DNA from: Asaia krungthepensis NRIC 0535
GTDB taxonomy: Bacteria; Pseudomonadota; Alphaproteobacteria; Acetobacterales; Acetobacteraceae
Direction of reading: 5' to 3'
DNA: 64,000 bases
Assembly: GCF_025995175.1 (NCBI RefSeq)
Contig: NZ_BAPV01000001.1
Coordinates: 62,001-126,000, forward strand
Part shown: piece by piece, positions 25,611 to 62,293 of the stretch
Layout of the letters: every line of letters starts with the position of its first letter
Position numbering within the stretch: the first letter of the stretch is position 1
Made by a program: the position numbers and the translations under genes
Notes under the pieces: model-generated
The model's input: only the letters and a program-made list of their open reading frames with translations
What the model was told of the DNA's origin: nothing
Database searches by the model: none

Positions 25611-25728
25611 GTATCGGCGTCCCGCAAGGCTCGCAGGGTTGTCCTGGGTAGTCCGGGCACGACTTGCAAAATTATCCGGACACAGCACATAGTAGAAAAC
25701 CGGCCGGTCAGGTCGGCTGATAATTTGA

Positions 25729-25869
25729 CGTTCTCAGGGCGGGGTGGAACTCCTCACCGGCGGTAGGTGCCTTTGCACGAGCCCGCGAGCGCCTTCGGTC
25801 CCTGGACCGAAGGGACAGCAGATCCGGTCCAAATCCGGAGCCGACGGTCATAGTCCGGATGGAAGAGAA
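25729..25869 (+). promoter_or_regulatory. FMN riboswitch (RFN element)
   Basis: The canonical conserved blocks of the RFN element appear in order: TTCTCAGGGCGGGGTG, CACCGGCGGT, AGCCCGCGAGCG, CAGCAGATCCGGT, CCGGAGCCGACGGT and AGTCCGGATGGAAGAGAA. The closing stem is formed by TTCTC with GAGAA. It lies directly upstream of ribD-ribE-ribBA-ribH and should reduce their expression when FMN is abundant. About 126 nt separate its end from the ribD ATG and would hold the expression platform. Confidence 0.96.
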
Positions 25870-25995
25870 CAGGTTACGCTTTCGCAAGGGGCTCCCTCTT
25901 GTGAAGACGCCAGATGTTCGCGCCCGGGGACCGTCCAGACAGGATGGGACCGTATTACCGTGCCGGGAGATTTCTCCTCCAGCCCCGTTTTGCAT

Positions 25996-49710: not shown

Positions 49711-51537
49711 CTATACGGCGAACTGACGCACCATCTGATTGAGCAGCAGAGGGTCCTCAGTCAGCATGACCTGACGATAGAGATCGTCGCATCCTGTCAG
49801 GGACAGAGAGCGTATCATCCGCTTGACTGGCGGAAGAAGCGCCGCCGACATCGAAAACGACCGCAGCCCCATGCCGATCAGCAGCGCGACCACCCGTGGG
49901 TCCGAGGCCATCTCGCCGCAGACACAAACAGGCCTGTGCGCCCTCAGAGCCTCATCGACCGACAGGCGCAGCAGGCGCAGAACGCCGGGGTGCAGAGCCG
50001 TATACAGTTCCGATCCCATGGCTGCCGAGCGATCGACAGCAAGGGTGTACATGGTCAGATCGTTCGTTCCCAGGGCGAGAAACTCTGCCTGACGCACGAG
50101 GGCCCCTGTGGTCAGGGCGGCTGCCGGGGTCTCGATCATGACGCCAAGCGGTGGAAGCTCCTGAGGGAGCTTGACGCCCCGACGGCGCAACCTCTTGGCG
50201 CATCGCTCATAGATCTGTCGCGTGGCAGTCACCTCGTTGACCGAGCTCACCATGGGCAGGAGAACACGCAGCCTGCCATGGAGGCTGGCACGCAAAATGG
50301 CGCAAAGCTGCGTTTCGAGTATCTCGGGATGACGGAGCAACAGCCTGAGTCCGCGCACACCGAGCGCCGGATTCTCTTCTTCCTCTTCCCGATGGATGCC
50401 AAGTTGCCGCAGACGCGCCAGTCCCTTTTCACCACCCCAGTCCAGAACCCTGATGGTTGTGGTCATGCCCGGCATATCGGCTACGATCCCGGCGTAGGTC
50501 TCGTATTGTCCGTCCTCATCCGGCAGGGCTTCGCTCTCATCAAAGAGGAACTCTGTGCGAAGCAGCCCGATCCCGGCGGCACCATTACGATGCAGCAGGG
50601 GTAGTTCGTTGGCCAGCTCGACATTGGCCAGTAATTCGATGTCTTCGCCGCTCACCAGCCGGCTCGGCAGACGCCTCAGCCTGCCGATTCCCTTTCGCTC
50701 CCTGGCTTCGTCGGCCATGACCGAACGCGCCTCGGCGAGTGTGGCCGAATCAGGATGCAGGATGACCTTGCCGGTCGTGCCGTCGATGATCAGCAGATCG
50801 CCGTCATTGATCCGGTCTGTCAGATGGGGCACGGCCAGAATAGCCGGCACATTGAGTGCCCGGAGCATGATGGCCGTGTGGTCGGTGACTCCGCCGCCTT
50901 CGGACAGTACCGCGGCGATCCTGTTCGGGTCGATCACGGCGGCGTCTGCCGGGCGGATCTGTTCGGCTACGAGGATCGAGCCCCCGGGGATATCGGAAAA
51001 CGCCCGGAAGGAAACACCGGTCAGATTGCGCAACAGGCGGCGTGCCACCTCCCGGAATTCTCCTTCCCGACGACGCGCGCCTTCGATTTCCTCTTCCGGC
51101 ATGCCGGGCTGCGGTCCGGCCATGGCTGCAAGGGCATCGCTCTCGACCTGGACCGCCGCTTCGGCAGTGATACCGTCTTCGGCGATGCGTCTTTGAGCCG
51201 CGCGAACCAGACGGGAGTGATTGAGCATCCGCTCGTAAACGCTGAGCAGGGCGTCGATCTCGATGCGCCCTTCTTCCGGAAGGGCATTGAGCTTGGTACG
51301 CAGCTTGCGCAATTGCTTGAGCGTCAGGGCGATCGCCTGATCGAGACGAGCCTGTTCAGCCTCGATAGTCAGCTCCGAGGGGAGACGTTCGATGACCGGA
51401 AGCGGGCGCTCATAGGTCAGGCTGGCCCGTGCAATGACAACCCCGGGGGAGATACCTGCCCCGCGGAGCACTTCCATGGGCAGGTCATCGACGGGCAGAA
51501 CGGCTTCGCTGGACGGGCGCCGCAGTCGCTTAATCAC
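49711..51537 (-). CDS. ptsI: Phosphoenolpyruvate-protein phosphotransferase (PTS enzyme I)
   Basis: A 608-residue enzyme that takes phosphate from PEP and gives it to HPr. The phosphohistidine site is GGGVTDHTAIMLRAL, and the PEP-binding TIM barrel has GIGLLRTEFLF, the loop VRGLRLLLRHPEI and the active-site CVCGEMASD. No GAF domain is present, so it is EI, not EI-Ntr. The start is taken as GTG at 51537, which overlaps the HPr stop by 8 nt; a TTG at 51558 is also open. It is the last gene of a five-gene set hprK-rapZ-EIIA-HPr-EI. No sugar-specific EIIB or EIIC gene is near, so the chain is likely regulatory. Confidence 0.93.
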   Translation of the reverse strand: MIKRLRRPSSEAVLPVDDLPMEVLRGAGISPGVVIARASLTYERPLPVIERLPSELTIEAEQARLDQAIALTLKQLRKLRTKLNALPEEGRIEIDALLSVYERMLNHSRLVRAAQRRIAEDGITAEAAVQVESDALAAMAGPQPGMPEEEIEGARRREGEFREVARRLLRNLTGVSFRAFSDIPGGSILVAEQIRPADAAVIDPNRIAAVLSEGGGVTDHTAIMLRALNVPAILAVPHLTDRINDGDLLIIDGTTGKVILHPDSATLAEARSVMADEARERKGIGRLRRLPSRLVSGEDIELLANVELANELPLLHRNGAAGIGLLRTEFLFDESEALPDEDGQYETYAGIVADMPGMTTTIRVLDWGGEKGLARLRQLGIHREEEEENPALGVRGLRLLLRHPEILETQLCAILRASLHGRLRVLLPMVSSVNEVTATRQIYERCAKRLRRRGVKLPQELPPLGVMIETPAAALTTGALVRQAEFLALGTNDLTMYTLAVDRSAAMGSELYTALHPGVLRLLRLSVDEALRAHRPVCVCGEMASDPRVVALLIGMGLRSFSMSAALLPPVKRMIRSLSLTGCDDLYRQVMLTEDPLLLNQMVRQFAV

Positions 51538-51814
51538 GTTCGCCGAAGCCGTCCGCAACGAGGGCTATCAACGCGTTGAGCGCGGCACTGGCCTGCGGGC
51601 CAGTCGCAGAGAGACGTACGGTTTCGCCCCGGCCAGCACCCAGCATCATCAGCCCCATGATGGAAAGGGCCGACACGCTCTGCCCCTGACGGCTGACATC
51701 GATGCTGGCGTCGAATCCCTCGGCAAGGGTAACGAATTTCGCCGCCGCCCTTGCATGAAGACCGAGCCGGTTGACGATGGTCACATCGCGTTCCAGCGTC
51801 GGCGCGAGGCTCAT
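51530..51814 (-). CDS. ptsH: Phosphocarrier protein HPr
   Basis: A 94-residue phosphocarrier. His20 in NRLGLHARAAAKFV is the EI-dependent site and Ser51 in ALSIMGLMML is the HPr-kinase site; the spacing of 31 residues equals that between His15 and Ser46 in model HPr proteins. Presence of the Ser agrees with the hprK gene nearby. The ATG overlaps the EIIA stop by 4 nt and the 3' end overlaps ptsI by 8 nt, so the genes are tightly coupled. Confidence 0.95.
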   Translation of the reverse strand: MSLAPTLERDVTIVNRLGLHARAAAKFVTLAEGFDASIDVSRQGQSVSALSIMGLMMLGAGRGETVRLSATGPQASAALNALIALVADGFGERD

Positions 51815-52320
51815 CGGGCGACCTGGCGCATGGGGGCCAGCAACGGGGAGATTGGGGGGAGGGGGGACACGTATTTCATGGTGGTCGTCACCACCATTTC
51901 ACAGCTTTTCCCACCTTGCAAACATGAGGGCGGCAACTGGGATGCGGCGGCAATGTATTTACGCCCCGCCATAGTGGCCAGTTCGGCGCACTCGGCCAGA
52001 CTGCGTGTGCAGCGTGTCTTGGCCAGCTTGACCAGCATGGGCACATTGACCCCGGCCAGTACCTCGACACGTCCTTCCTGACGCAGGGAAAGCGCGAGGT
52101 TGGAGGGGGTGCTGCCGAACATGTCGGTCAGGAGAAGCACGCCGTCTCCGGTATCGACCGAGATGATGGCGGCGTCGAGCAGAGGGCGGGCCGCGACGAT
52201 ATCGTCGTCGGGCGAAATTCCCATTGTCGCAATCTGGCGCTGGGGTCCAACGACATGGGTCACGATTTCAAGAAGAGACTGGGCCAGAGAGCCGTGTGTG
52301 ACCAGAACGATCCCGATCAT
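51811..52320 (-). CDS. PTS EIIA-Man family protein with C-terminal extension
   Basis: A 169-residue phosphoacceptor. The N-terminal GIVLVTHGSLAQSLLE places the phospho-His at residue 9, as in EIIA of the mannose family, followed by VLLLTDMFGSTPSNLAL and VLAGVNVPML. The core domain ends near residue 125. About 40 further residues (LPPSCLQGGKSCEMVVTT..., ending in MRQVAR) are Pro/Ser-rich and unlike family members. It probably receives phosphate from HPr and serves as a signal output, since no permease is present. It overlaps ptsH by 4 nt. Confidence 0.9.
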   Translation of the reverse strand: MIGIVLVTHGSLAQSLLEIVTHVVGPQRQIATMGISPDDDIVAARPLLDAAIISVDTGDGVLLLTDMFGSTPSNLALSLRQEGRVEVLAGVNVPMLVKLAKTRCTRSLAECAELATMAGRKYIAAASQLPPSCLQGGKSCEMVVTTTMKYVSPLPPISPLLAPMRQVAR

Positions 52321-52396
52321 CGGGGCCTTCCTTCATGGGGTATGTGACGCCAGTTTTGCGGCGACCCCAGAAGATATTGGTCATCCAAAGACGTTA

Positions 52397-53365
52397 TCAA
52401 GACGGCTCGGTCCGTATCTGTTCATCCGGCGTGACATGCTGCTGGGGAGCACGAACCCATCGCCATGAGCTGCGTCCCTGACGTGCCAGTTCACGATGCA
52501 TGACGACGATCGGCACGTCTGACAAGAGTTTAATCTCGTCCAGGTTGCATAACGTTGTCGCGAGTTCTTCAACAAGTGTTACCGAACGGTGTTGGCCGCC
52601 TGAGCAGCCTATCGCAATCGTAGCATGCTTCTTTCCCTCGGCGACGAAACGAGGCAGTACAAGTTTCAACAGGTCGAGGATGCTCGTAAAAAAGACCGGG
52701 TAATCGGGATCCTGCTGAACGTATTCGCGCACGTCGACGTCCAGCCCGGTTTTTGCCTTCAGTTCCGGGTCGTAATGCGGATTGCGCAGGAAACGTGCAT
52801 CGAAGACCAGATCGGCTTCACGCGGTAATCCTGCGGGATAAGCGAAGGAAAGCAGGGTGAGCGTCATCGAGTCGCCATCATTCTGATGACCGAATCGCGA
52901 TTCGATGAGTCGTCTCAGATCATGCGGCGGCAGGTCTGAAGTGTCGATCACGAGATCGGCCGCCCCGCGTAACGGGGCAAGCAAGGCGATTTCCTGATCG
53001 ATGCTGGCGACCAGCCCTGGTGCTGTGCCTGTGCTGTTATCAAGCGGATGGCGGCGTCGCGTCGCAGTGAAACGGCGAAGCAGCACATCTGTCTCGGCAG
53101 TGGCATAAAGCAGTTCGACATGAAGATCGTGCTGGGTACGCAGATGGGCGAGCGCCAGCAAAACTGCACGGGCTTCGAAGCCGCGCGTACGGACATCGAT
53201 GCCGATGGCCAGAGGGTGTTCCGTGCGCGCCGCGAGGGCATCGAGCAGGGTCAGAGGCGGGTTGTCCGTCACTTCATAGCCAAGATCCTCCAGCACGCGC
53301 AGGATCGATGACTTGCCCGCTCCCGAGAGACCCGTGACCAGAAGGATGCGCCGCGCCGCACTCAC
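52397..53365 (-). CDS. rapZ: RapZ/YvcJ-family nucleotide-binding protein
   Basis: A 322-residue P-loop protein with Walker A VTGLSGAGKSS near residue 10, Walker B-like region around LVIDTSDL, and the C-terminal RapZ domain containing LLSFAYPAGLPREADLVFDARFLRNPHYDP and IAIGCSGGQHRSVTLVEELA. In enterobacteria RapZ binds GlmZ and controls glucosamine-6-phosphate synthase; in alphaproteobacteria it lies with hprK as here. It starts 43 nt after the hprK stop and ends 76 nt before the EIIA gene. Confidence 0.93.
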   Translation of the reverse strand: MSAARRILLVTGLSGAGKSSILRVLEDLGYEVTDNPPLTLLDALAARTEHPLAIGIDVRTRGFEARAVLLALAHLRTQHDLHVELLYATAETDVLLRRFTATRRRHPLDNSTGTAPGLVASIDQEIALLAPLRGAADLVIDTSDLPPHDLRRLIESRFGHQNDGDSMTLTLLSFAYPAGLPREADLVFDARFLRNPHYDPELKAKTGLDVDVREYVQQDPDYPVFFTSILDLLKLVLPRFVAEGKKHATIAIGCSGGQHRSVTLVEELATTLCNLDEIKLLSDVPIVVMHRELARQGRSSWRWVRAPQQHVTPDEQIRTEPS

Positions 53366-53408
53366 AAATCGCTACTCCGTTCGAACAGCCTGAAACTTCG
53401 GTTCGAGC

Positions 53409-53951
53409 TTAGCGAGCTTCCCGCGCGCTGGGGAGGGGGAGACAGTCATGCGAGCCGCCATTAACGCCGCAGACAAGCGTCAAATCGCCGCGAATGCAGC
53501 GCATGACCGTGCGAATGACCGCCACGGCATCGGCATGAAACCCGTCCATGGTGATCTGCCACAAACCTGAGGTGGCATCGATCTGTCGTGGTGGCAGACG
53601 TTCGGGCACGATGCCGGGTACCAGATGAACATGGAGCACAAGGGTTGTCTGGGGCGCAGAGGGCATCTGTACCAGACCGACACCGCGTATTTCGACCAGC
53701 CCGGCCAGAGCCGAGGCAGGGCAGGCCAGCTTGCCCGCAAGATGGATCTGGTCATCGCCCACAAGCATGAACCCGCTATCGATCAGGCGGAGCAAAAGAC
53801 TCGATTTCCCGGCACCGGAACAGCCGGTCAGCAGAACGCCTGAATCGCCCAGGCTTGCGCATGAGCCATGCACCAGCCCCGATGGCGGAATGTTGAAAGG
53901 CGATGTGCAGCTTTGGGAATGTGCGTTATGCTTGGGCTCATGCACGATCAT
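53409..53951 (-). CDS. hprK: HPr kinase/phosphorylase, short alphaproteobacterial form
   Basis: A 180-residue kinase domain with Walker A TGCSGAGKSSLLLRL, the GDDQIHL catalytic segment and the family signature VEIRGVGLVQM. The N-terminal regulatory domain of Gram-positive HprK is missing, as is normal in alphaproteobacteria. It should phosphorylate Ser51 of HPr. ATG 53951 follows a run of GGAGG sequences; GTG 53945 is an alternative with equally good spacing. Longer upstream frames would cover most of the ridA gene. Its start codon overlaps that of the divergent RidA gene by 12 nt. Confidence 0.87.
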   Translation of the reverse strand: MIVHEPKHNAHSQSCTSPFNIPPSGLVHGSCASLGDSGVLLTGCSGAGKSSLLLRLIDSGFMLVGDDQIHLAGKLACPASALAGLVEIRGVGLVQMPSAPQTTLVLHVHLVPGIVPERLPPRQIDATSGLWQITMDGFHADAVAVIRTVMRCIRGDLTLVCGVNGGSHDCLPLPSAREAR

Positions 53952-54284
53952 TCCTCCCCTCCCTCCCGTCCTGTCCTGCAGGACAGTGTGACCTATTACG
54001 GTGTGACAGGGCTGGGCCCGGACGGAAAGCCTCCGGAGAGTCTGATCGAGGAATGCCAGAATGCCCTGGCGCGTATCCGGGATATTCTGGCGACCCATGA
54101 CCTTGTGCCCGAGGATATCGTGCATCTGGCCTATATGATTCCTGACAGTGTCACGTTCAGCGCCTGTCAGCGCGTGATTGCCGAGGCTTTGGGTCCGGCG
54201 CGGCCGGCCATGACCCTGAGACTCAAGCCTTCATTCGATGTGCCGGGTCAGCGACTGGAATTCAATTTCATTGCCTCTGCCTGA
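53940..54284 (+). CDS. RidA/YjgF family protein
   Basis: A 114-residue protein of the Rid family. It shows VLQDSVTYYGVTGLGPDG, an amphipathic helix LIEECQNALARIRDILATHDL, EDIVHLAYMIPD and the C-terminal strand GQRLEFNFIASA. The Arg near the C-terminus is in place of the carboxylate-binding Arg of active RidA, but surrounding residues differ, so imine deaminase activity is not certain. The first Met of the family-like part is 53940; an in-frame ATG at 53929 is also possible. Neither has a strong ribosome site. Starts overlap hprK head to head. Confidence 0.78.
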   Translation: MHDHSSPPSRPVLQDSVTYYGVTGLGPDGKPPESLIEECQNALARIRDILATHDLVPEDIVHLAYMIPDSVTFSACQRVIAEALGPARPAMTLRLKPSFDVPGQRLEFNFIASA

Positions 54285-56711: not shown

Positions 56712-59700
56712 TCAGCGCGAGGTCAGAAGCCCGATATCGCCACCGAGTGCGGCATGGTTGACGGTCACGACGCACTCGCTCAGCAGCCATTCCGGGCGCA
56801 CCGTATCGAGATCATAGACCGGCACGACCATTCCCTCCCGGGCGGTTACCGTCAGGGCGGCCTGTTCGGCGCTCTCGGCGCCTCGCTGGATGATCATGGC
56901 ATCGCATTCCGGCAGGGCGCCGGGGTCGACGCGAGTGATGATATTTGCGAGCTGACGCGATACCTGACGCAGCCATTCCACGGCGGGATCGGGTGCGAGC
57001 ACAAGCACGGTATTGCCCGTGCCCAGAGCCAGACCAACCGCATGAAGCAGAGCTGGCCAGCTTTCGCAGGCGCAGAGAATGACGCCGCGCGGGCGCAGGG
57101 TATAGCGGTTGCTCTCGCCGGAGGGAGCGGGCAGATCGAAAGATAATCCGCTCAACCCGTGGGCAATGACGGCCCGAACGCGTCGTGCCGAGGGCGGATC
57201 ACGCGGCTCGAGAAAAGACAGGAAAGCCCGTGCCGCGGAAGGAACAGGGGTTTCCGGCGCCGCGATGATCGGGCAGGGCGCGCCATGCATCAGCCTTGGT
57301 AGAAGAAGAGGCCCGCCCAGTTTGGGTCCGGAGCCGGACAGGCCCTTGCCACCGAAGGGCTGCATCCCGATCGTGGCCCCGATCATGGGGCGATTGACAT
57401 AGATGTTGCCGGCTCTGCTTCGCGAGCAGGCACGCTCGGTAGTCGTGGAAAGGCGGCTCTGCACGCCGAAAGTGAGCGCATAGCCTGTCGCATTCAGCGC
57501 ATCGATCACGCCATCGAGCTCATGCCGCGCGTAGCGCCGCACATGCAGGACCGGGCCAAATACCTCTTGTCCGATATCGGCCACGCGTCCGATCTCGATC
57601 AGGGTTGGCGCCACGAAATGCCCACGCAGGGTTTCGGCCTGCATGTCGGGCTGCCAGACGCGATAGCCGGCGCGCCTCATACGCTCGATATGATCTTCCA
57701 GTCGTGCCCGGGCACTGGCCGAGATCACCGGGCCGATATCGGTCCTGAACTGATCGGGTGCTCCGATGCACAACTCGCGTATGGCGGATTGAAGCCGCTC
57801 GATCAGCGTGTCGGCTCCGTCTTCCTGAATTAGCAGGACGCGCAGAGAGGCACTGCGTTGCCCGGCGCTGTCGAAAGCGGAAGACAGGATATCGGGAATG
57901 ACCTGCTCGGGGGGCACGGAGCTGTCCACGAGCATGGCGTTCTGCCCGCTCGTATCGGAGAGCAGGGGCACGGGCTGACCCGTACGCCCGGTGCGTCCGA
58001 GCAATTCGCGACTGATGGTTTTCGCAACGGCTGTCGAGCCTGTGAACATCACCCCGTCTATGCGTGAATCCGCGACGAGCGAGGCGCCGACATTTCCCTC
58101 ACCGGGCAGGAGCTGAAGGGCACGCGCGGGAAGTCCCGCCTCCAGAAACAGGCCGAGCAGCCGGGCGGCGATCAGCGGTGTTTCCTCGGCGGGTTTGGCA
58201 ATGACGGCATTGCCCGCGGCTAAGGCCGCCGCAACCTGTCCGGTGAAACTTGCAAGCGGAAAATTCCACGGGCTGATACACAGAATAGTGCCAAGAGGCG
58301 CGCCAAGCCCGCCTGTTTCAGCAAGGCTGCGTAGCTGGGCGGCGTAGTACCGCAGGTAATCTATCGCTTCTCGCCATTCGCCCGCGGCATTGGCCAGGGT
58401 CTTGCCTGCCTCGCGTATCAGCAGGGCGATCAGGGTCGTCTGATCCTGCTCAAGAGCCAGGGCCATGCGATCGAGACAATCGGCGCGCGCAGCGGGCTCG
58501 GTGCGGCGCCAGATCATGTCGGTTTCGGCAGCGTTGAGCGCGGCGTCGATATCGCGTGGTCTGGCGTAGACCACCACCCCCACCCTGTCCTCATGGGTGG
58601 CTGGGTTGCAGATGGCGCGTGGCCTTCCCTCGGCTCTGGGCATGGCGGCGCCCATCGGGAGTGCCTGAAACGGGCCGAGCTGTGTCGGCAGACTGGCCGC
58701 GAGTCCTCCCAGTGTGAGTGGGTTCGCCAGATCGAGACTGGCGGCAGAGACCCGCTCGGGCAGAAACAGTTCGGTAGGGGGCGTGATGCGCTGGCTTGGC
58801 ATGCCGCGCGGCAGGACATTGCGCGCCTTGGCCACCGGATCGGCGATCAGCGTGTCCAGGGCAATAGTCCGGTTGGCGGCCTGATTGACGAAAGAGCAAG
58901 GAGCCCCGTTCTCGAGCAGACGACGCACCAGGGTTGGGGCGAGGCGTGAATCGGGGCCGATCGGGGCCATGATCCGACAGCCCGGCCTTGCAGCATTCAG
59001 CCCCGCGTTGCTATGCCCCGCAACGGGAACGGCGTTGGCGCGCATCAGCGGGGCATAGAGCGTTTCGCCCATGCCATGCAGGGAGCCGAATTCGTATCGA
59101 CCCGGGGTGAACGGTCCAGCAAGGGCCATGATGGTCGCGACGCTGCGGGCATTATGGGTGCCAAATTGCGGATAGAGCGCTTCCGGCGCCTCGAGTGCCC
59201 GCCGGGCGCAGGCGATGAAGCTGACATCGGTGTGGCATTTGCGCGTGAAGACCGGGTAATCGCTGGCCGATTCCCTCTGGGCGTCACGGATCTCCCGATC
59301 CCAGAACCCGCCCTTGACCAGACGGAGCACGAGGCGTCTCTCGGTCTCGCCTGCCAGCGCGATGAGATGCTCGATGACGGGCAGGCACCTCTTGTCGCTG
59401 GCCTGCACCGTGAAGCCCAGCCCGTTCCACCCGGCCAGCTCATGCAGATGGCAGAGAGCCTCGAACAGATCGAGTGACAGCTCCAGTTCGGTGCTGCGTC
59501 CGGCATCGAATATCAGGAGAATGTCGGCGGCATGGGCGCGTTGCGCCAGCGTGGCGAGAAAGGGCAGCAATTCGGCCCTGATCCGCGCGATCTGGGTCAT
59601 GTCGAAGCGGGGATGCAGTGATGACAGGCGCAGCGAGAGCGCTGGACGCTCGAACAGTGAATTCCCCCGTGCCTGTCGCCCTAGGGTATCGATCATTGTC

Positions 59701-60362
59701 AGGGCATCGCGCCGCGCCATCTCGGCTTCCTCGGCGGTCTGGGCTGGCTCGTGCAGCGCGGCATAGGCGAGTGTGAAACCCTGCTGTTCCAGCTTCCGCC
59801 CGCGCCGCAAGGCCTGATTCAGGGTTTCCGCCAGAACGAACTGGCTGCCCATCATCCGTATGGCCTTTTCCACCCCATGCCGGAAGAAAGGGGCGGTTCC
59901 CCGCATGGCGAGACTGCGCAGTCCGCCTGTGACGGCATTGAAGCGCGACGAGGTGGACATGGCCCAGCTCGCGGCATTCAGGAAGAACGGATGGTCATGG
60001 CCTCCATGATGCAGCCACTCCCCCTGGCCGATCTGGTCATGGATCAGAGCATCGCGCGTTGCGGCATCGGGAATGCGCAACAGCGTTCCGGCAAGGCAGA
60101 GCAGGGCCTTTCCCTCGGATGAAGCAAGGGGGAAGGCCTGCATCATGGTCTCGACCCCTTTTGTATCCGCATTGTCGCGCAGGGTCGTCGCAAGGAGGCG
60201 GGACTGGGTCTCCACCTCTTCCAGCTGGCTGTCGGTCAGGGTCGCGCGGGTCAGGAGCGGGGCAAGGATCTCCGCCTCGGGACGGCGGGCAGCATGGGCA
60301 ATGGCCTCACGCGTGGGCGAGAGCGCCGGACGGTGGGGGAGGAAACTGGAAAACGGGGTCAT
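56712..60362 (-). CDS. putA: PutA homologue (proline dehydrogenase / glutamate semialdehyde dehydrogenase) with substituted active sites
   Basis: A 1216-residue protein colinear with PutA but without the N-terminal ribbon-helix-helix domain. The proline dehydrogenase barrel spans about residues 150-490 and the aldehyde dehydrogenase domain about 590-1070. A C-terminal domain follows. Spacing matches E. coli PutA with a constant offset of 84, yet residues equivalent to Asp285, Lys329, Tyr437, Tyr540 and Tyr552 are Ala201, Arg245, Phe353, Met465 and Thr477. Asp286 and Arg480/481 are kept. In the aldehyde domain the nucleophile Cys is Ser837 (AGQRSASLR) and the general-base Glu is Asp803 (SDTSGQN). 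NAD-fold segments such as SPWNFPLASFTGQVAAALAAG remain. Normal catalysis is doubtful. Confidence 0.88.
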   Translation of the reverse strand: MTPFSSFLPHRPALSPTREAIAHAARRPEAEILAPLLTRATLTDSQLEEVETQSRLLATTLRDNADTKGVETMMQAFPLASSEGKALLCLAGTLLRIPDAATRDALIHDQIGQGEWLHHGGHDHPFFLNAASWAMSTSSRFNAVTGGLRSLAMRGTAPFFRHGVEKAIRMMGSQFVLAETLNQALRRGRKLEQQGFTLAYAALHEPAQTAEEAEMARRDALTMIDTLGRQARGNSLFERPALSLRLSSLHPRFDMTQIARIRAELLPFLATLAQRAHAADILLIFDAGRSTELELSLDLFEALCHLHELAGWNGLGFTVQASDKRCLPVIEHLIALAGETERRLVLRLVKGGFWDREIRDAQRESASDYPVFTRKCHTDVSFIACARRALEAPEALYPQFGTHNARSVATIMALAGPFTPGRYEFGSLHGMGETLYAPLMRANAVPVAGHSNAGLNAARPGCRIMAPIGPDSRLAPTLVRRLLENGAPCSFVNQAANRTIALDTLIADPVAKARNVLPRGMPSQRITPPTELFLPERVSAASLDLANPLTLGGLAASLPTQLGPFQALPMGAAMPRAEGRPRAICNPATHEDRVGVVVYARPRDIDAALNAAETDMIWRRTEPAARADCLDRMALALEQDQTTLIALLIREAGKTLANAAGEWREAIDYLRYYAAQLRSLAETGGLGAPLGTILCISPWNFPLASFTGQVAAALAAGNAVIAKPAEETPLIAARLLGLFLEAGLPARALQLLPGEGNVGASLVADSRIDGVMFTGSTAVAKTISRELLGRTGRTGQPVPLLSDTSGQNAMLVDSSVPPEQVIPDILSSAFDSAGQRSASLRVLLIQEDGADTLIERLQSAIRELCIGAPDQFRTDIGPVISASARARLEDHIERMRRAGYRVWQPDMQAETLRGHFVAPTLIEIGRVADIGQEVFGPVLHVRRYARHELDGVIDALNATGYALTFGVQSRLSTTTERACSRSRAGNIYVNRPMIGATIGMQPFGGKGLSGSGPKLGGPLLLPRLMHGAPCPIIAAPETPVPSAARAFLSFLEPRDPPSARRVRAVIAHGLSGLSFDLPAPSGESNRYTLRPRGVILCACESWPALLHAVGLALGTGNTVLVLAPDPAVEWLRQVSRQLANIITRVDPGALPECDAMIIQRGAESAEQAALTVTAREGMVVPVYDLDTVRPEWLLSECVVTVNHAALGGDIGLLTSR

Positions 60363-60588: not shown

Positions 60589-60891
60589 TCAGGGGTGATG
60601 TCTGTTGAAGAGTCGCACGCTACGCTCCTCGATCTTAAGTTCGCGCAGCGCAGCAGCGAATTTTTCGAAATGCGGCGTTTTCAGATGCGCCTCGAAGGCT
60701 GCTCGTCCAGTATAGACTTCATGGAGCACGACGATGCCTTGGTCATCCTGCGGAGTCAGGACATCGAAGGTCAGACACCCCTCTTCATCTGCACGCGAAC
60801 GATCGCTGTCATACCGGCAGATATCGAGAAATGCGGTCAGGCTTTCAGACGGAACGGTGAATTCCGCGATGACAGTAAAGTGCTCTGACAT
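60589..60891 (-). CDS. Antibiotic biosynthesis monooxygenase (ABM) / YgiN-like protein
   Basis: A 100-residue dimeric alpha+beta barrel protein. It has the ABM pattern: FTVIAEFTVPSESLTAFLDICRYDSDRSRADEEGCLTFDVL, then VVLHEVYTGRAAFEAHLKTPHFEKF. Members include quinol monooxygenases and heme-degrading or stress proteins; the specific role is unknown. The start at ATG 60891 has GGAG 8 nt upstream; the frame continues to 61002, but that part would run into the glycine riboswitch on the other strand. It is divergent from the gcv operon. Confidence 0.85.
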   Translation of the reverse strand: MSEHFTVIAEFTVPSESLTAFLDICRYDSDRSRADEEGCLTFDVLTPQDDQGIVVLHEVYTGRAAFEAHLKTPHFEKFAAALRELKIEERSVRLFNRHHP

Positions 60892-60962
60892 GTCCGTAAC
60901 TCCGTCGAGTTTACTGAATTGACTTTTCTGCCCCAATTCTGCGAAGAGTAAACACCGATTCA

Positions 60963-61119
60963 CGGGAGAGACCGGACAATTTTTCCGGCGCCGAAGGAGC
61001 AACCGCCCCGGAAACTCTCAGGCAAAAGGACCGCGATCGGCTGGAACTTCTGGAGAGAGGCATCCCTGTGGGGTGTCCGCCGACGGGATAGCGATCTCAG
61101 GCAAAGGCGACAGAAGGGG
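60963..61119 (+). promoter_or_regulatory. Tandem glycine riboswitch upstream of gcvTHP
   Basis: Aptamer 1 (about 60963-61034) shows CGGGAGAGACC, GGCGCCGAAGGAGCAACC and GAAACTCTCAGGCAAAAGGACCGC, all canonical. A short linker leads to aptamer 2 (about 61049-61119), with TGGAGAGAGGC, GCCGACGGGATAGCGATCTCAGGCAAAGGCGACAGAAGGGG. The core of aptamer 2 is less standard (GCCGACGGGATAGC where GCCGAAGGGGCAA is usual). It should switch on the glycine cleavage operon when glycine is high. A run TTTTTTCGTTTT follows before the gcvT ribosome site. Confidence 0.93.
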
Positions 61120-61159
61120 CGACGATTTTTTCGTTTTCTGCCTTGGGGGATTCCGCCCG

Positions 61160-62293
61160 TTGTTCGACCCGCTCTCATTCACGCCGCTCAATGACCTGCA
61201 TATCGAGCTCGGAGCTCGCATGGTGCCGTTTGCGGGCTATTCCATGCCCCTGCAATACCCGGCCGGGCTCATGGCAGAGCACCTGCATACGCGCAAAAGC
61301 GCAGGGTTGTTCGACGTCTCCCATATGGGACAGCTGCGGATCACCCCCAAACAGGGCACGCTCAACGATGCCGCTCTCGCGCTGGAAAGCCTGATCCCGG
61401 TCGATCTGGCGGGTCTGGGCGCCAACCGCCAGCGCTACGGTTTTCTCACCAATGACGCAGGCGGTATCCGTGACGATCTGATGGTCGCCAATATGGGTGA
61501 CTGGTTGTTCGTGGTCGTCAATGCCTCCTGCAAGGCCGCCGATACGGCGCTGATGGAAGCGGCTCTCGGGGATCGGGTGGTGATCGAGAAGCTCGATGAT
61601 CGCGCCCTGCTGGCCCTTCAGGGGCCGGAAGCTGTCAACGTTCTTCAGGATCTTTGCCCGGAAGCCGCCGAAATGCGGTTCATGGATGCGATCGAGGCTG
61701 ACATCGATGGCGTTGCCTGCACCCTGACCCGCTCGGGTTATACGGGTGAGGATGGCTATGAGATCGGCATCCCGGCCGAGCATGCCGAGCAGATCGCCCG
61801 TGCGCTTCTGGCCGATGAGCGCGTTCTGCCCATCGGTCTGGGTGCGCGCGACAGCCTGCGTCTCGAATCCGGTCTGTGCCTGTACGGGAATGACCTGGAC
61901 GAAACCACCACACCCGTCGAGGCCGCTCTTGGCTGGGCCATGCAGAAGGCGCGCCGTGAAGGCGGCGCGCGTGCAGGGGGCTATCCGGGCGCCGAGATCA
62001 TCATGAAGCAGGCGCGTGAGGGCGTGTCCCGCCTGCGCGTCGGTCTGGCTGCGGAAGGGCGCGCGCCCGTACGCGCTGGTACCGAGCTTTTTGCCGATGA
62101 GGCTGGCACGCAGAAGGTGGGTGTCGTCACCTCCGGTGCTTTCGGTCCGAGCATCAACGCCCCTGTGGCGATGGGCTATGTCGAGACGGCTTATGCCGTT
62201 CTAGGCACCACGCTTTACGGCGCCCTGCGCGGCAAGTTCGTGCCGGTTCAGGTGCGCGCCCTGCCTTTCGTCCCGCCCGGCTTCAAACGCTGA
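61160..62293 (+). CDS. gcvT: Aminomethyltransferase (glycine cleavage T protein)
   Basis: A 377-residue folate-dependent enzyme transferring the methylene group from lipoyl-H protein to tetrahydrofolate. It has the N-terminal TPLNDLHIELGARMVPFAGYSMPLQYP, FDVSHMGQ, the folate-site ALQGPEA, TRSGYTGEDGYEI and LRLESGLCLYGNDL. No ATG or GTG fits the expected N-terminus. The TTG at 61160 with GGGGGA 9 nt upstream gives the normal length; an ATG-type frame starting at 61073 would lie inside the riboswitch. It is followed 27 nt later by gcvH. Confidence 0.92.
   Translation: MFDPLSFTPLNDLHIELGARMVPFAGYSMPLQYPAGLMAEHLHTRKSAGLFDVSHMGQLRITPKQGTLNDAALALESLIPVDLAGLGANRQRYGFLTNDAGGIRDDLMVANMGDWLFVVVNASCKAADTALMEAALGDRVVIEKLDDRALLALQGPEAVNVLQDLCPEAAEMRFMDAIEADIDGVACTLTRSGYTGEDGYEIGIPAEHAEQIARALLADERVLPIGLGARDSLRLESGLCLYGNDLDETTTPVEAALGWAMQKARREGGARAGGYPGAEIIMKQAREGVSRLRVGLAAEGRAPVRAGTELFADEAGTQKVGVVTSGAFGPSINAPVAMGYVETAYAVLGTTLYGALRGKFVPVQVRALPFVPPGFKR

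Follow-up and report, generated by a model that had tools for sequence, protein, structure and literature searches.

Domain organization of PutA2

We analysed a stretch of 64,000 nucleotides from Asaia krungthepensis NRIC 0535 (contig NZ_BAPV01000001.1, positions 62,001 to 126,000 of the forward strand), here called the window, and focused on one gene in it, which encodes a paralogue of PutA. This protein is called PutA2, and the canonical PutA found elsewhere in the genome is called PutA1. The putA2 open reading frame starts with ATG, contains zero internal stops and encodes 1216 amino acids. The gene and its domains are as follows.

56712-60362, minus strand: putA2, PutA paralogue of 1216 amino acids with the catalytic residues of both domains replaced
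59814-60362, minus strand: arm or N-terminal region, residues 1-183 (PF18327 at 15-62, PF14850 at 70-175)
58881-59813, minus strand: proline dehydrogenase (PRODH) barrel, residues 184-494 (Pfam Pro_dh); largest PutA2/PutA1 rate ratio of all domains
57288-58622, minus strand: aldehyde dehydrogenase (ALDH) domain, that is, the glutamate semialdehyde dehydrogenase (GSALDH), residues 581-1025 (Pfam); Glu and Cys replaced, nicotinamide adenine dinucleotide (NAD) contacts 6/6 kept on a provisional contact list
56715-57287, minus strand: C-terminal ALDH-superfamily-like domain, residues 1026-1216; smallest PutA2/PutA1 rate ratio, with PutA2-specific residues

Pfam assigned the PutA arm (PF18327), PF14850, Pro_dh at 184-494 and Aldedh at 582-1016. 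A phmmer alignment covered residues 2-1213 with the Sinorhizobium meliloti PutA (SmPutA; 5kf6) at E = 0, and the last 191 residues alone matched the SmPutA C-terminal domain (E = 8e-07). PutA2 therefore has the organization of a bifunctional PutA, with PRODH, ALDH and C-terminal domains in one chain and homology along its full length. It scored above the cut-off of the NCBIfam bifunctional PutA model (1057 vs 747 bits) and below that of the trifunctional model (1199 vs 1750 bits). No ribbon-helix-helix (RHH) DNA-binding domain was matched by Pfam at the N-terminus at E ≤ 0.001, the first match being the arm domain at residue 15. A scan of genome contigs with this single protein matched one locus, in Asaia sp. 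W19, the nearest named relative (94% identity). Promoter and terminator scans at putA2 gave nothing above shuffled sequences.

Catalytic residues are replaced in both enzyme domains

We assigned the active-site residues from the phmmer alignment with SmPutA. Two further PRODH sites, Ala201 and Phe353 of PutA2, are given by their Escherichia coli PutA numbers, Asp285 and Tyr437. The codons concerned are listed below.

59760-59762, minus strand: Ala201, at E. coli Asp285
59628-59630, minus strand: Arg245, at SmPutA Lys265
59304-59306, minus strand: Phe353, at E. coli Tyr437
58968-58970, minus strand: Met465, at SmPutA Tyr473
58932-58934, minus strand: Thr477, at SmPutA Tyr485
57954-57956, minus strand: Asp803, at SmPutA Glu810
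57852-57854, minus strand: Ser837, at the SmPutA catalytic Cys844

The SmPutA numbering follows PMC12398946. The results showed that the proline-binding set (SmPutA Lys265, Tyr473, Tyr485, Arg488 and Arg489) is incomplete in PutA2: the Lys and both Tyr are replaced, and the two Arg are kept as Arg480 and Arg481. Both members of the GSALDH catalytic pair, Cys844 and Glu810, are replaced (Ser837 and Asp803), as is Ser845, a substrate-carboxylate contact that corresponds to Ala838. At these catalytic sites all 18 PutA1 rows compared had the canonical residues. Because PutA1 is canonical and both D803 and S837 are shared by 10/10 PutA2 copies of the Asaia type defined below, chance or a sequencing slip is not the source of the two changes. 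An earlier note, made from the letters of the window, had described a PutA homologue in an unbroken frame, with the five PRODH substitutions, the kept Arg pair, Ser837 as the residue at the nucleophile and Asp803 at the general base; our analysis bears these points out. The replacement at Ala838 was not among the changes that it listed.

Asaia PutA2 retains the oxyanion residue Asn700 and Phe701, together with its NAD contacts. For contact retention we used as background the positions invariant in the 18 PutA1 rows and three intact PutA2 rows, of which 77/149 in the PRODH domain were kept. The flavin adenine dinucleotide (FAD) and NAD contact lists are provisional. In the six complete Asaia-type rows FAD contacts were kept at 11/12 positions (hypergeometric P = 0.003) and proline contacts at 0/7 (P = 0.005 for loss); given how short and in part provisional the lists are, both P values are no more than indicative. 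Arg481, which is also a proline contact in PMC12398946, was counted with FAD. The PRODH pocket varied within these six rows, with R/C/K at the Lys site, F/L/T/Y at the Tyr552 site and R/H/D at the Arg555 site. Asp803, Ser805, Ser837, Ala838 and Ser839 were uniform in the six rows and in the related copy of genome G016; the fragment from G006 has Asn at 805.

On these residues, it is very likely that PutA2 has lost both canonical PutA reactions. For the Cys change there is a direct parallel, since SmPutA C844S has a disabled GSALDH while its pocket still binds aldehyde and NAD+, as described in PMC12398946.

A canonical PutA accompanies every degenerate PutA2

The source genome carries a second PutA (G000:C17:14524-18075), 46% identical to PutA2 and canonical at every catalytic site examined. 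A divergent gene adjoins it, whose protein resembles, by eye, an Lrp/AsnC regulator. This is like the putA/putR arrangement known from Caulobacter and many Alphaproteobacteria (PMC6168545). PutA1 was present in 18/18 genomes with a degenerate PutA2, although split in G007, whose PutA1 we left out of the later residue counts. Three of the four genomes with an intact PutA2 (G030, G078 and G080) had no other PutA at E ≤ 1e-100. PMC4596401 lists two genes as proline dehydrogenases in Asaia bogorensis, one of which would be the PutA2 paralogue.

PutA2 forms a clade in which catalysis was probably lost more than once

We searched 397 Acetobacteraceae genomes with the PutA2 C-terminal domain at E ≤ 1e-30. 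Matches were found in 28 genomes: 22 carry PutA2 (≥ 54% identity), five have ordinary PutAs that match less well (37-41%), and G157 has a short remnant. In a search of 385 genomes from the class at E ≤ 1e-25, the matches listed were only the window's genome and one 34% match from the same family. A tree of 73 rows, which included three N-terminal fragments cut at the frame change and omitted four other pieces of copies with a broken frame (three from the C-terminal part, one from the middle), placed the 22 PutA2 rows apart from other PutAs with a Shimodaira-Hasegawa-like approximate likelihood ratio (SH-aLRT) support of 100.

Catalytic residues were changed in 18 of the 22 PutA2, namely 10 of the Asaia type and eight of a second genus (g79, which was taken to be Acetobacter). 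The Asaia type comprises nine genomes of the genus and G016, and all ten have Glu to Asp and Cys to Ser, three being read from fragments. The earlier note had proposed checking whether the substitutions were clade-wide, and for Asp803 and Ser837 within this group they are. In the second genus the Glu is replaced by Gln (G401) or Arg (the other seven) and the Cys is kept. The seven rows with Arg also have the oxyanion Asn changed to Ser and have lost the Lys site, the Tyr sites and one PRODH Arg, whereas G401 keeps the Asn. G401 retains 7/7 proline contacts and 3/8 GSALDH contacts, having lost the Glu and four others, a pattern which suggests that GSALDH was lost before PRODH in this lineage.

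Four PutA2 have intact catalytic sites (G030, G033, G080 and G078). In a further genus, g71, the only PutA2, that of G078 (L076), is divided between two reading frames and has intact catalytic residues, and G157 (L132) has the short remnant only. The intact G078 copy was sister to the Asaia-type group in the 73-row tree at 94, just below the starred level. In a tree of 26 rows, from which frame-broken copies were left out, the fork joining G078 and the Asaia type was supported at 99/98. An approximately unbiased (AU) test rejected the 15 complete degenerate rows as a single clade (p 0.0125, for a group named after the first tree had been seen). These tree and AU results, and the fact that the two groups fixed different residues (Asp/Ser in one, Gln or Arg alongside Cys in the other), favour no fewer than two independent losses. 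These findings indicate that catalysis in PutA2 was probably lost two or more times.

In G016 (L059 and L041), PutA1 lies within the Asaia PutA1 group and PutA2 forms a long branch outside that of Asaia, a hint that genes were exchanged or that change was faster.

Constraint on PutA2 has shifted from the PRODH barrel to the C-terminal domain

We estimated the ratio of nonsynonymous to synonymous divergence (dN/dS) by the Nei-Gojobori method in nine genome pairs. The whole-gene ratio for PutA2 was 0.04-0.17 in the 8/9 pairs where it was computable. The C-terminal domain had a lower dN/dS in PutA2 than in PutA1 in 8/8 computable pairs, and the PRODH domain a higher one in 6/8, the exceptions (equal or lower) being G002/G005 and G162/G210. 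Identities followed the same reversal. In divergent Asaia-type pairs, short linker aside, PRODH was the most conserved part of PutA1 (93-94%) and the C-terminal domain the least (64-65%); in PutA2 the C-terminal domain was the most conserved (83-87%) and PRODH reached only 60-71%. Within PutA2 of the second genus the reversal was weaker, with PRODH, ALDH and C-terminal identities of 85, 84 and 82% in G162/G413.

Mean PutA2/PutA1 distance ratios with 95% column bootstrap intervals (200 draws) were obtained for each domain. In six Asaia-type genomes they were 1.91 [1.38-2.49] for the arm, 5.12 [3.83-7.27] for PRODH, 0.94 [0.75-1.17] for ALDH and 0.38 [0.27-0.55] for the C-terminal domain. Relative to PutA1, PutA2 divergence in these genomes was thus 5.1-fold higher in PRODH and 2.6-fold lower in the C-terminal domain. 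The corresponding values for seven second-genus genomes were 1.80 [1.43-2.33], 2.77 [2.12-3.45], 1.29 [1.09-1.53] and 0.58 [0.45-0.73].

We found 83 positions at which all of 17 PutA2 rows (15 degenerate and two intact) had the same residue, one that was not fixed across 16 PutA1 rows. By domain, 41 were C-terminal, 18 late ALDH, 16 early ALDH, 7 PRODH and 1 arm. At 27 of the 83 the PutA2 residue was never seen in the 16 PutA1 rows, and 17 of these lay in the C-terminal domain.

Neighbouring genes

An M61 peptidase gene lies near PutA2 in Asaia-type loci and in G030; in G080 one sits at the edge of the stretch. A RapZ gene occurs at most of the PutA2 loci that bear M61 and in G078. In the window, a cluster of phosphotransferase system (PTS) type at 49711-54125 on the minus strand encodes a PEP-utilising enzyme I-like protein, EIIA-man, RapZ and a protein with an HPr kinase C-terminal domain, with the M61 peptidase adjacent. 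In six genomes including G030 (L054, L055, L101, L095, L096, L097), the gene next to PutA2, on the opposite strand, encodes a tetratricopeptide repeat (TPR) protein that by eye resembles glycosyltransferases, and a flagellin-like gene lies near it in three of the six. In four genomes of the second genus (L099, L100, L103, L104), PutA2 is flanked on one side by a prolyl oligopeptidase gene (Pfam run on one of the four) and on the other by a gene that by eye is L-serine dehydratase-like.

Upstream of putA2 by 226 bases and on the same strand is a small gene with an ABM domain (60589-60891, minus strand), and a homologue is in the equivalent place in 9/9 genomes of the genus and in G016. A glycine riboswitch (Rfam RF00504, 67 bits) was found at 60953-61043 on the plus strand, directly before gcvT (61073-62293, plus strand). 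We rejected a link between this riboswitch and putA2, as it is on the other strand and precedes gcvT, which is divergent from putA2. A flavin mononucleotide (FMN) riboswitch (RF00050, 104 bits) lies at 25726-25874 on the plus strand.

Comparison with known PutA proteins and pseudoenzymes

SmPutA (5kf6, 9c34, 9c36), a bifunctional PutA with a C-terminal ALDH-like domain, has the same domain order as PutA2 and matches it in that C-terminal domain as well. Unlike SmPutA, PutA2 has Lys265, Tyr473, Tyr485, Glu810, Cys844 and Ser845 replaced and carries PutA2-specific residues in the late ALDH and C-terminal parts. The human ALDH homologue ALDH16A1 has no PRODH half. Like PutA2, it lacks catalytic residues, and it has been termed a pseudoenzyme (PMC10650815); it belongs to a different family and organism, and in it the whole catalytic triad is missing. 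The engineered SmPutA C844S has the identical Cys to Ser change, as reported in PMC12398946, but it is a laboratory mutant with the PRODH site and Glu810 intact, whereas PutA2 is naturally altered at the Glu and the PRODH site too. A non-catalytic, regulatory role is known for trifunctional PutA of the E. coli type and for the Ralstonia PutA regulator (PMC9132996, PMC5293562). These proteins keep their activity, and trifunctional PutA has an RHH domain, for which PutA2 had no match. Among open-licence papers, our searches turned up no description of a PutA that lacks its catalytic residues.

PutA2 as a proposed maintained pseudoenzyme

Measured against what is expected of a pseudoenzyme, PutA2 is missing the catalytic residues of its family, and putA2 is under purifying selection without decay, with the caveat of frame breaks in three draft genomes. 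The loss of catalytic sites in both domains, the intact PutA1 in the same genomes and the purifying selection with constraint shifted off PRODH suggest that the dead copy has another job. We therefore favour, with moderate confidence, the reading that PutA2 is a maintained, lineage-specific PutA pseudoenzyme, which probably binds cofactors and acts via its ALDH/C-terminal unit, and which would have taken on a new role. PutA2 would still fold and carry FAD and NAD(H) as bound ligands. It would act without turnover through a PutA2-specific surface of the ALDH and C-terminal domains, as a partner, a scaffold or a sensor of cofactor or aldehyde occupancy, alongside a PutA1 that would perform proline oxidation. 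More tentatively, PutA2 may be a natural pseudoenzyme that arose on two or more separate occasions from a catalytic ancestor in which the ALDH/C-terminal unit already had an extra function. The chemistry would have been lost once PutA1 oxidised proline, and the extra function, for example NAD(H) or aldehyde sensing passed to a partner, would have been kept.

The earlier note had judged the protein maintained and had suggested looking for a canonical putA elsewhere in the genome. Purifying selection agrees with the former, with the same caveat of frame breaks, and the search turned up PutA1. Among the roles that it offered, a pseudoenzyme is now the best supported, given the clade-wide changes, the canonical putA and the purifying selection, and a regulator is possible. 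Its suggestion of a different substrate or a hydrolytic reaction fared differently in the two halves. For the PRODH pocket it is argued against, because the pocket drifts within the genus. For the ALDH pocket, where Asp/Ser is fixed, it is possible yet disfavoured: in the other lineage Cys is retained and Glu has become Gln or Arg, which leaves no common new chemistry.

Several observations weigh against the pseudoenzyme reading. FAD contact retention fell to 9/12 once G016 joined the six Asaia-type rows and was 5/12 in the second genus, no better than background, and cofactor binding may therefore not be general. The 6/6 NAD contacts in Asaia were not above the ALDH background of 141/174 (P = 0.28). 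No neighbour gene common to all 22 PutA2 loci was found, and G033 carries both PutA1 and PutA2 intact. Whole-gene dN/dS in three divergent Asaia-type pairs was 0.12-0.17 for PutA2 vs 0.08-0.11 for PutA1, and many of the 83 PutA2 positions qualify only through variability in PutA1. The synonymous divergence (dS) of G000/G008 (L001/L010 and L002/L042) was 0.46 for putA2 vs 0.13 for putA1, and dS was low (0.23) in the PutA2 C-terminus of G162/G210; because dS is unequal between the copies or low locally, recombination may bias the rate comparison. In G000/G008 either putA2 or putA1 may have recombined. The putA2 frame is broken in 3/9 genomes of the genus (L019/L017/L018; G001, G006 and G007). 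Each break is a shift by a single base, at a different point of the ALDH half in each genome; all three genomes are drafts and the PutA1 of G007 is split too; sequencing error likely lies behind at least some of them, and decay is also possible. The retained fold is proposed from homology, as a structure prediction for residues 560-1216 from two rows 94% identical (the window and L060) gave a mean pLDDT (predicted local distance difference test) of 33 and was discarded. Finally, the fixed Asp/Ser pair in Asaia could mean a new reaction.

This last point leads to the main rival, a re-specialised enzyme, in which the PRODH half would be a scaffold and the ALDH pocket would carry out another reaction with Ser837/Asp803 in Asaia and Cys837/Arg803 in the second genus. 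The uniformity of D803, S805, S837, A838 and S839 across the seven complete Asaia-type and G016 rows while the PRODH pocket drifts, the retained Asn700, Phe701 and NAD contacts, and an ALDH constraint equal to that of PutA1 (ratio 0.94) are all consistent with it. However, the two lineages fixed different residues and the oxyanion Asn became Ser in 7/8 rows of the second, which makes a shared new chemistry unlikely; the Ser845 substrate-carboxylate contact is also lost in Asaia, and Ser for Cys disables the parent GSALDH reaction (PMC12398946). We regard this explanation as unlikely on balance. Similar weight, that of a minority possibility, falls on a specific form of the pseudoenzyme reading, in which PutA2 is a non-catalytic subunit of a hetero-oligomer with PutA1 and tunes it. 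That degenerate PutA2 always occurs together with PutA1 (18/18) fits such a pairing, although simple redundancy predicts this co-occurrence equally well. The C-terminal domain, the most constrained part relative to PutA1, would suit it too, but putA1 and putA2 are not neighbours in these genomes, and G030, a genome that lacks PutA1, already carries the PutA2-specific residues, so these did not evolve for pairing with PutA1.

A functionless redundant copy in slow decay would explain the drift of the PRODH catalytic sites, the broken putA2 frames of three genomes in the genus, and the remnant in G157. It is improbable in light of the whole-gene dN/dS of 0.04-0.17 in 8/9 pairs, a C-terminal domain held tighter than that of PutA1, and full-length frames that persist over high synonymous divergence in two lineages; the frame breaks themselves fall at differing sites in draft genomes, one with a split PutA1, and sequencing error is likely for at least some. 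It is very improbable indeed that PutA2 is an ordinary working PutA despite its residue changes. Full-length homology, the conserved FAD contacts and the two proline dehydrogenases listed for Asaia bogorensis (PMC4596401) speak for it, but the seven proline-contact positions are changed or variable, the sites concerned are invariant in 18 PutA1 rows, and in SmPutA the exchange of Cys for Ser is by itself enough to disable GSALDH (PMC12398946).

Implications for PutA biology

The pseudoenzyme reading bears on annotation, as an Asaia gene listed as a proline dehydrogenase, and probably also one in the second genus, may be mis-annotated, with effects on metabolic models. PutA is a textbook example of substrate channelling, and discussion continues over what the C-terminal ALDH-like domain does in long PutAs. 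If the chemistry of PutA2 is dead while its C-terminal domain is held tighter than in the working enzyme, the protein would offer a route to the non-catalytic role of that domain. Repeated loss of catalysis where a second PutA copy is present would also make PutA2 a good case for the study of how an enzyme becomes a pseudoenzyme.

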